Of a stretch of DNA of 64,000 nt, positions 15,435 through 17,256 are shown piece after piece; positions within the stretch are counted from its first letter, which is position 1, and every line of letters starts with the position of its first letter. Source of the DNA: Deltaproteobacteria bacterium (GTDB lineage: Bacteria > Desulfobacterota > Syntrophobacteria > Syntrophobacterales > Thermodesulforhabdaceae). Both the position numbers and the translations under genes were made by a program. The stretch is from positions 1 through 64,000 of the forward strand of contig JAFDGW010000015.1 of NCBI GenBank assembly GCA_019309115.1. The letters run 5' to 3'. The notes beneath the pieces were generated by a model. It saw only the letters and a list, made by a program, of their open reading frames with translations. It did no database searches and was not told where the DNA came from.

Positions 15435-15475
15435 GAAAAACAGCTTGAAGGGTAACAGTGTAATAGCGGATTTGG

Positions 15476-15502
15476 AGCCGGCTGCCAGAGGCCGGCTTTT
15501 TT
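15476..15502 (+). terminator. Intrinsic terminator after rplQ
   Basis: AGCCGGC (15476-15482) pairs with GCCGGCT (15491-15497) over an 8-base loop and is followed by five more T residues. This is a perfect 7-bp GC-rich stem with a T-tract, directly after the last ribosomal gene, so it most likely ends the alpha-operon transcript. Confidence 0.85.
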
Positions 15503-15895
15503 ATCTTTTACGGTAAGGTAAAGACCTACAAAGTTCCTGCTACATGCGGGAATAGGTAAGGATAGCCTACCAAATTCCGTCAGAAGCTCTGTTCGTAAGG
15601 GCGGAGTAATTCACTTGAGGCTGAAGAGGGTTGTTAACAGTTACTTGATTTTTTGATTTTATTTGCTTATTTGTATGCGTGCACACGAACGAGTTATAGT
15701 GTTATAGATTTATGAGCTGTGGGCAACTAAAGGGGCTTGTCTCCAATGGTGTCAGGCAACATAAGCCGTTACGCCTGACTCCACAGCTCATTGAAGTGGA
15801 TGTTCATCTGAGCAGAAATAGGAAGCTGTTAGTAGGAAAAAGGTAACGGTTTTGTGCCCTTTGCCATCGAGTGTGCGATTTTTGCGGAGTTTTTT
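15503..15895 (+). other. Gene-free region with several inverted repeats; candidate structured RNA
   Basis: I see no coding sequence here. Several pairings are visible on the plus strand: a hairpin at 15524-15557 (ACCTA/TAGGT enclosing TTCCTGC/GCGGGAA, loop TACAT), a weaker one at 15587-15606 (CTCTG/CGGAG), and a longer element at 15712-15791. The last has an 11-bp perfect closing stem, ATGAGCTGTGG with CCACAGCTCAT, enclosing a possible 4-bp hairpin (GGGG/CTCC, 15732-15744) and a 7-bp hairpin (GTCAGGC at 15751-15757 with GCCTGAC at 15773-15779), i.e. a possible three-way junction. It does not match RNase P RNA, tmRNA, SRP RNA or a riboswitch that I recognise. It could be a leader of rimO, an independent small RNA, or a small inverted-repeat insertion. 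Confidence 0.35.
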
Positions 15896-15921
15896 AATAC
15901 CTGCAGATTATCGGTAAAAAC

Positions 15922-17256
15922 TTGGAAGATAGTCGCCTTCTGTGTCATTTTTTGCGTTATCTTCTGGGTTTATTTTCCAGCAAGGGGCATTTGCCCGTTC
16001 ATAGTCCGGATGATGCTGATGTTATTGTCGTAAACACTTGTGCCTTCCTTGAAAGTGCTGTTGAAGAAGCTATTGACACAATACTGAAGTTCGCTCAGAT
16101 CAAAGAAAAAGCTCCAGAGAAAAAACTCGTTGTTTGTGGCTGCCTTGTGCAAAGATATGGAAAGAAGCTGATACCCCTGTTGCCCGAAGTGGATTATTTT
16201 TTTGGTACGGCTCACTATGAAAACGTACCATCTGTGTTGAGCAATTTGAAACAGGTTTATTCTAAAATCCTTATTTCCAATCCGGGACAGCGAATAGAAA
16301 ATTTTCGCCATCGCCTCGTTTCGACCTTACCTTCTCACGCTTATTTGAAGGTTGCGGAAGGATGCTCCAACGGGTGCACCTACTGTTACATTCCTAAGCT
16401 AAGGGGGCCGCTGCGGAGCAGGCCCGTTGAAGATCTGCTAAAAGAGGTTGAGTTTCTCGATAAGCAGGGTGTTTCCGAGCTAATAGTAGTAGCCCAAGAT
16501 GTTGCCGCCTATGGGATAGACCTGTACGGTGGTCTGAGACTGGTTACACTTCTGGAATGTATCGAGGAAAGGGTTAAGAACATTCGGTGGATTCGCTTGC
16601 TTTATGCTTATCCAGACCACATAAACGACGAGTTGCTCCTTTTTATGGCAGATTCGGAAAGGGTAGTTCCTTATCTGGACGTGCCCTTTCAGCATTGTTC
16701 GAGAAGAATACTTAAGGCAATGGGACGCCGTGGGTTGGCGCTGAATCCGGCAAAGGTTGTTGAGAAGATAAAAAAGATTCTACCCCATATTACTCTCAGG
16801 ACCACTTTTATTGTTGGTTTTCCGGGTGAAAGTGACAGGGATTTCAAGGAACTGGAGCGCTTTATGACCGAGATGCAGTTCGATTATGTCGGAGTATTTT
16901 CCTATTCCAGAGAAAGGGGCACGAGGGCGGCTAGATTGAAGGAGCAGATACCAGAGGATGTTAAAGAGGAGCGCCGAATCAGGCTCTACGAGGTGCAAAG
17001 GGCAATAACAAGTAAGAACCTGGCAAAGTATGTTGGGAAGGTAGTTCCGGTGCTAGTTGATGGGTATCATCCGGACAGTGATCTGCTTCTTGCGGGGAGA
17101 ACTCCTGGACAGGCACCGGAAGTTGACGGGGTGGTAATCATTACTGAAGGCACGGCGGAAGCCGGGAGAATTGTTCCGGTCGAGATTTTACGTATACACG
17201 ACTATGATATGGAGGGGCGTATTGTAGAATCGCATTGTAAGCCGCCTGTGTTATAG
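15922..17256 (+). CDS. rimO: Ribosomal protein S12 methylthiotransferase RimO, abnormal N-terminus
   Basis: 444 residues from the TTG at 15922. The radical SAM motif CSNGCTYC is at residues 148-155, the N-terminal methylthiotransferase domain has NTCAF (Cys40) and VCGC (Cys72/74), and RIRLLYAYP-like IRLLYAYP plus a C-terminal TRAM-type domain point to RimO rather than MiaB. RimO adds a methylthio group to an Asp of S12 using SAM. Odd point: the family normally starts with about ten more residues ending GCPKNLVDSE, whose Cys is the first of three ligands of the auxiliary 4Fe-4S cluster. Here the frame reads YLQIIG-KNLEDSR after an in-frame TAA at 15895, so the Cys-Pro pair is missing. A GGAG at 15886-15889 would suit a CTG start at 15901; TTG 15922 has no ribosome-binding site. 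Either the N-terminus is damaged, or there is a sequence error. Confidence 0.8.
   Translation: MEDSRLLCHFLRYLLGLFSSKGHLPVHSPDDADVIVVNTCAFLESAVEEAIDTILKFAQIKEKAPEKKLVVCGCLVQRYGKKLIPLLPEVDYFFGTAHYENVPSVLSNLKQVYSKILISNPGQRIENFRHRLVSTLPSHAYLKVAEGCSNGCTYCYIPKLRGPLRSRPVEDLLKEVEFLDKQGVSELIVVAQDVAAYGIDLYGGLRLVTLLECIEERVKNIRWIRLLYAYPDHINDELLLFMADSERVVPYLDVPFQHCSRRILKAMGRRGLALNPAKVVEKIKKILPHITLRTTFIVGFPGESDRDFKELERFMTEMQFDYVGVFSYSRERGTRAARLKEQIPEDVKEERRIRLYEVQRAITSKNLAKYVGKVVPVLVDGYHPDSDLLLAGRTPGQAPEVDGVVIITEGTAEAGRIVPVEILRIHDYDMEGRIVESHCKPPVL

Follow-up and report, generated by a model that had tools for sequence, protein, structure and literature searches.

PATEs are miniature derivatives of IS200/IS605, and guide RNAs of IS605 and IscB that occur without their protein are the subject of prior work. 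In the IS607 family, represented by IS607, IS1535, ISC1926 and ISXfa1, the elements have neither terminal inverted repeats nor target duplication, use a GG target and carry short direct repeats at the left end, as reported in PMC6188088. According to PMC10711439, the right-end RNA of ISXfa1 contains an apical-loop pseudoknot required for activity, and its scaffold includes a fixed nucleotide of the right flank. For other IS607 TnpBs, AG-rich TAMs are given in PMC11061315. Among the titles and abstract openings listed, a literature search found no description of a protein-less IS607 element with a guide RNA.

The locus described here lies in the rplQ-rimO spacer of the window, the whole 64,000-nucleotide stretch of DNA that was analysed. 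It contains a 222-bp repeated element that resembles the IS607 family in its GG ends, in having no terminal inverted repeat and, as far as can be seen by eye, no target duplication, in its short direct repeats at the left end and in a right-end RNA that overlaps the tail of TnpB. Moreover, a related element encodes TnpB together with a TnpA composed of a MerR-type HTH and a serine recombinase. Unlike the described family members, the window element has neither tnpA nor tnpB and is only 222 bp long. Its right end is similar to the IS607 reRNAs (ISXfa1, and the RAGATH-18-derived reRNA of ISFba1), since it forms a structured RNA of stem-loops and a pseudoknot whose scaffold stops approximately at the transposon boundary, with the guide beyond. 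It differs from them in having no Rfam match, a three-way junction of its own and no TAM found, and about 63 nt that its own relatives have in their right ends are missing from it. Like MITE-type IS derivatives, the element is protein-less and multi-copy, and a transposase like that of its parent presumably moves it in trans, whereas its IS607 ends and its apparently retained guide-RNA core set it apart from MITEs and PATEs.

We interpret 15628-15849 as a TnpA-mobilised, internally deleted, non-autonomous IS607-family element that keeps an omegaRNA core, and assign this reading a probability of roughly 90%. The assignment to a miniature IS607 element is made because the copies have a fixed length and GG ends, and because these ends are homologous to those of a TnpA-bearing element on contig C65. 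The guide-RNA core is considered to be retained because TnpB tail codons are present together with a three-way junction and a pseudoknot that show pair-keeping changes. The features of the spacer and its surroundings are as follows.

15474-15499, + strand: terminator-like hairpin 3' of rplQ, belonging to the host.
15555-15614, + strand: right-end remnant of an IS200/IS605-type TnpB element, ending in ..GTAATTCAC (85% to locus L056 over 15555-15616).
15628-15849, + strand: protein-less miniature element of very probable IS607 type, 222 bp, GG at both ends (from copies, flanks and end patterns).
15628-15703, + strand: left-end part of this element, with tandem TTGATTTT at 15645-15652 and 15653-15660 (from likeness to the C65 left end).
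15712-15791, + strand: three-way junction, omegaRNA-like core (stem 15712-15723/15780-15791, arms 15726-15750 and 15751-15779).
15712-15846, + strand: 44-aa open frame, a remnant of the TnpB C-terminal tail and no gene of its own.
15766-15772, + strand: pseudoknot arm 1, CCGTTAC, in the loop of helix 3, which can pair with 15843-15849.
15843-15849, + strand: pseudoknot arm 2, GTAACGG, which includes the terminal GG of the element.
15850-15869, + strand: right flank, the would-be guide if the RNA is used (position taken from the IS607 TnpB papers).
15922-17256, + strand: rimO without the canonical start and the first-cysteine motif (from the alignment of relatives and Pfam UPF0004).

A DNA search of the element's own genome with 15503-15895 gave 35 matches in two groups, which do not overlap in the window and cover approximately 15627-15850 and 15555-15616. 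In an ungapped alignment of the first group, the likeness stops at sharp ends and the flanks beyond are unrelated. Eight copies of exactly 222 bp were located, including that of the window; the other seven are 92-96% identical, and partial and divergent copies occur besides. The mean difference among the eight is 4.7%. When the end patterns were tried on 11 copies, nine were located (the eight of 222 bp and the divergent C1 of 268 bp), and C25b and C64 were not. The 25-nt left-end pattern occurs at 13 places in the genome against 0 for a reversed-pattern control, and the 17-nt right-end pattern at 18 places against 2. Fifteen rows were aligned; in L046 the right end is lost, and L047 reaches its contig edge. 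The left-end GG (15628-15629) is present in 10/10 of these rows that show the left end in register, and the right-end GG (15848-15849) in all 13 that show the right end. Inspected by eye, the 15 rows reveal no target duplication; a terminal inverted repeat was not seen in them either. From this comparison of copies, the element is seen to have multiplied in the genome. Joining the flanks of the nine located copies (11 tried) did not prove any interrupted gene; by eye, some joined frames overlap a yhbY-like ORF (C25) and a pth-like ORF (C58), with the junction near the left edge of the ORFs. The C25 copy, used as a DNA query against 196 genomes, was present in the source genome only, plus one 24-nt match in G145; at most four candidates were scored per genome, and the nearest relatives listed share the family and none the genus.

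Both ends of the window element resemble those of a 2.1-kb IS607-type element on contig C65 (L079), which has coding sequence between its ends. The left ends are 77% identical over 44 nt (L079:1290-1333), and the right ends 85% over 86 nt and 81% over 48 nt. The right end of the C65 element coincides with the contig end, and contigs C70 and C37 start with the identical 114 nt, followed by differing flanks. The C65 TnpA (L079:1344-1958) is an open frame of 204 aa with MerR-type HTH and resolvase domains. It scores 186 bits with NCBIfam NF033518 transpos_IS607 (cut-off 110), and its nearest PDB match is ISC1926 TnpA (E 4.5e-36). The C65 TnpB is in pieces, with one stop and one frame change. Its last piece harbors a Cas12f1-like TNB domain above the cut-off and the TIGR01766 TnpB-related domain at 39.3 bits, exceeding the cut-off of 32. 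The same piece of the broken protein, used as the query, falls below the cut-offs of NCBIfam IS607_TnpB NF038280 (34.5 vs 350 bits), guided_TnpB (84.2; cut-off 100) and Cas12f2 (95.1; cut-off 450). The 44-aa frame of the window element is 60% identical to the C65 TnpB tail over 35 aa (single-comparison E 4e-9), and the longer C25b copy has the same likeness. In addition, G285, a genome of the same phylum, contains two right ends of the element's kind with a TnpB tail (87% over 76 nt). A second kind of IS607 TnpA, 41-42% identical to that of C65, is found in the source genome near contig ends, at C38 (L102:1113-1733, 206 aa) and at C10:80-637.

Among 295 relatives, the last TnpB piece matched four genomes, namely the source genome, G285 and, weakly, G007 and G212; the RNA model had no match at the G007 and G212 loci. 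In the search for an intact parent, this piece gave 64 pattern matches in genome contigs and 7 in viral contigs, of which 0 were confirmed, and plasmids and phages gave no DNA match. No parent was found whose ends match as closely as the copies match one another, the C65 left end reaching just the 77% over 44 nt given above. Across 395 genomes of the phylum, searched with strict filters and few candidates scored per genome, the RNA model (R1) matched in three: the source genome, G285 and G073. It matches the right ends of C65 and G285, both of which were in its alignment. The match in G073 (L113:1501-1648, equal to G073:C29:8657-8804; 33 bits) was treated as chance; it sits by eye between etfB- and etfA-like ORFs, and no TnpB was noticed in the 3.1 kb listed. 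At C3 (L077:84-142), where the model matches just the last ~50 bases of the right end, the score is 29.6 bits; a TnpB fragment lies farther along on the other strand, and the match is perhaps another relic.

The right-end part of the window element contains a perfect 11-nt inverted repeat, 15712-15722 with 15781-15791, exactly where the first-pass annotation had placed it. That annotation had also drawn a possible three-way junction closed by the repeat, and the 96 nt around it indeed fold into such a junction, with -35.6 kcal/mol, where shuffles average -25.4 (z -3.3; 0/200 shuffles as good). Other hairpins are present as well, namely the junction arms 15726-15750 and 15751-15779 and one inside the IS605-type right end, and the terminator-like hairpin after rplQ is at 15474-15499. 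The fold of the whole 393-nt spacer has a z of -4.35 (0/100 shuffles as good), and the 222-bp element folded as single-stranded DNA is ordinary (z -0.76; 48/200 shuffles). As for the Rfam covariance search that had been proposed as a check, none of 4227 models matched 15480-15960 even at E<=5, and the sole match in the window at gathering cut-offs is a tRNA. Pairing-preserving changes are present in our own alignment.

This alignment, A1, contains 14 sequences: the eight short copies, the divergent C25b, C1 and C64 of the source genome, C65, and two of G285. The partial copies C37, C21, C19, C2, C49 and C27 and the contig-start right ends of C70 and C37 were left out. The junction and pseudoknot are paired in 98.1% of 476 cells, compared with 35-43% when the structure is slid along the alignment, a comparison in which the structure has an advantage over its slid versions, as it came from the window sequence. 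All seven pseudoknot pairs are kept in 14/14 sequences, one of them changing from UA to CG in 3/14. Two-sided changes occur in four pairs. One belongs to the junction stem and one to the pseudoknot (each UA to CG), and the other two to the arm 15726-15750, in which the pair 15729-15747 is broken in 5/14 sequences. Because the rows of A1 are related copies, these counts are not independent events. Two-sided-change cells number 12 against 4.5 in shuffles (0/500 reach this value), and paired cells, two-sided-change cells and the covariation score all beat 500/500 shuffles. Pairs with a two-sided change number 4, a value that 86/500 shuffles reach, and further pair types number 17, which 309/500 reach. 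RNAalifold recovered the junction from A1 unaided; the pseudoknot, which it cannot predict, is absent from its output, where two of the pseudoknot bases are paired inside the loop.

Within the eight full copies, six core pairs vary and five of them remain paired in all eight. Variable sites make up 7/68 of the paired core, 4/27 of the unpaired core, 5/51 of the linker and 13/76 of the left end, so that no clear extra constraint on the core is apparent. The right-end structure overlaps the TnpB tail and ends at the right end of the element, as in omegaRNA/reRNA. The folded structure is most likely the core of the parent's right-end RNA (omegaRNA), kept by the miniature element, and not a riboswitch of the host. 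The 20 nt that follow it at 15850-15869 occur once in the genome when up to 3 mismatches are allowed.

To the left, the element faces the IS605-type remnant across a gap of 13 nt. Among the loci listed, the remnant's end TTCAC is common to 15/15 others, after which the flanks are unrelated; one of these loci overlaps the 3' end of a 469-aa TnpB (guided_TnpB 145.8 bits, cut-off 100). In one alignment, a weak likeness may extend to ~15510. The 222-bp element itself joins ~75 bp of left end to ~146 bp of right end and has lost all proteins, which suggests that an IS607 element was deleted internally and left its two ends. TnpA from another element, of the C65 kind or that of C38, would then have moved it in trans, and crossover at the GG dinucleotide would have placed the copies. 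The tandem TTGATTTT repeats are candidate TnpA-binding sites, by their likeness to the direct repeats described in PMC6188088. The copy in the window probably landed in the rplQ-rimO spacer just beside the IS605 remnant, which would be the older of the two.

To the right, the coding sequence of rimO is damaged at its start, as the first-pass annotation had recognized. The rimO starts of the relatives L010 and L012 read VSLGCAKNLVDS and ISLGCDKNLVDG, whereas in the window YLQIIGKNLEDS comes after an in-frame stop and the SLGC motif is absent. Neither a canonical start nor this motif is present between the element and 15922, and the Pfam UPF0004 match begins at profile position 18 of 98. This rimO is the sole strong RimO match among five matches in the genome. 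The beginning of the rimO frame is also overlapped by a GTG frame at 15854, which is read in a different phase. By hand count, the right end of the element at 15849 lies ~28-34 nt upstream of the equivalent of the L012/L010 ATG. An insertion inside the rimO coding sequence is unsupported at this distance, and the earlier suggestion that a mobile element had altered rimO is likewise unsupported, the decayed start being outside the element. The gene rplQ is near rimO in 7/29 loci of relatives, including all four of the same family (L010-L013); most loci extend just 1.5 kb beyond rimO. This neighborhood disfavors a misassembly at the repeat. Hand-counted spacers between the two genes measure ~70 nt in L012, ~1 kb in L010 and ~445 nt here, at least 280 nt of the last being made up by the two transposon pieces.

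The position right upstream of rimO and the stable fold speak for the small RNA or riboswitch-like leader that the first-pass annotation had considered. Of this proposal the fold stands, with its pairs preserved among the copies, but it belongs to a transposon that is repeated elsewhere and is not rimO's own. A riboswitch, attenuator or small RNA controlling rimO is very improbable and was rejected because the same 222 bp occur at other places in the genome and no Rfam family matches; apart from the 24-nt match, the sequence is also restricted to the source genome among the 196 searched. The alternative given by the same annotation, a small mobile element, was correct in kind, as a search for copies elsewhere in the genome returned many (eight of them located at exactly 222 bp) with sharp ends and unrelated flanks. 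The locus gives a caution, in that a well-folded spacer RNA beside a host gene can be a piece of a transposon. Short length, repetition, internal palindromes and a CAGTTAC near the left end that resembles the reversed right end CCGTTAC could also be expected of a miniature inverted-repeat element from an unrelated family with a DDE transposase. That neither a terminal inverted repeat nor a target duplication was seen speaks against such an origin, as does the resemblance of both ends to the IS607 element of C65, and we consider it highly unlikely.

The miniature IS607 reading is compatible with a further one that goes beyond it, in which the core is a working guide RNA in trans: the copies would be transcribed, the TnpB of another element would bind the core and cut empty sites with the right flank of each copy as its guide, and the copy would be retained. 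TnpB has been described as a gene drive of IS200/605 in PMC11870625, and use of the core by TnpB in trans is possible judging from what the element retains, namely the complete junction and pseudoknot, with five of the six varying core pairs still paired in every full copy. Moreover, the 222-bp and the longer C25b kinds differ in the length of their left ends, and in both the right part starts near the 5' side of the junction. This common right boundary may, however, just mean that one derivative arose from the other. The sole TnpB of this kind seen in the assembly is broken, ~63 nt present in the right ends of C65 and G285 are missing from the element, the variable sites reveal no clear extra constraint on the core, and inspection of the left flanks by eye gives no shared TAM. 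On balance, a working trans-acting guide is rather unlikely. The element might also be regarded as a guide-RNA-only selfish unit, which dropped both proteins, kept the omegaRNA and borrows TnpA for movement and TnpB for the destruction of its own empty sites; we hold this to be unlikely, and if it were true, the guide would come from the landing site and differ from copy to copy. Protein-less IS607 copies with a whole guide-RNA core raise the question of whether parasites of a transposon can share its TnpB nuclease, and they also bear on how guide RNAs become separate genes.

Two other loci of the genome combine parts of the 222-bp element with further coding sequence. At C49:357-700 (L052), a copy of the element minus 23 nt is abutted by an IS605-type tnpB fragment on the opposite strand, and the abutment point is the equivalent of window position 15783. 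At C2 (L080:2062-3306), an open frame of 414 aa has the right half of the element as its C-terminal end, so a protein may have gained a transposon tail.
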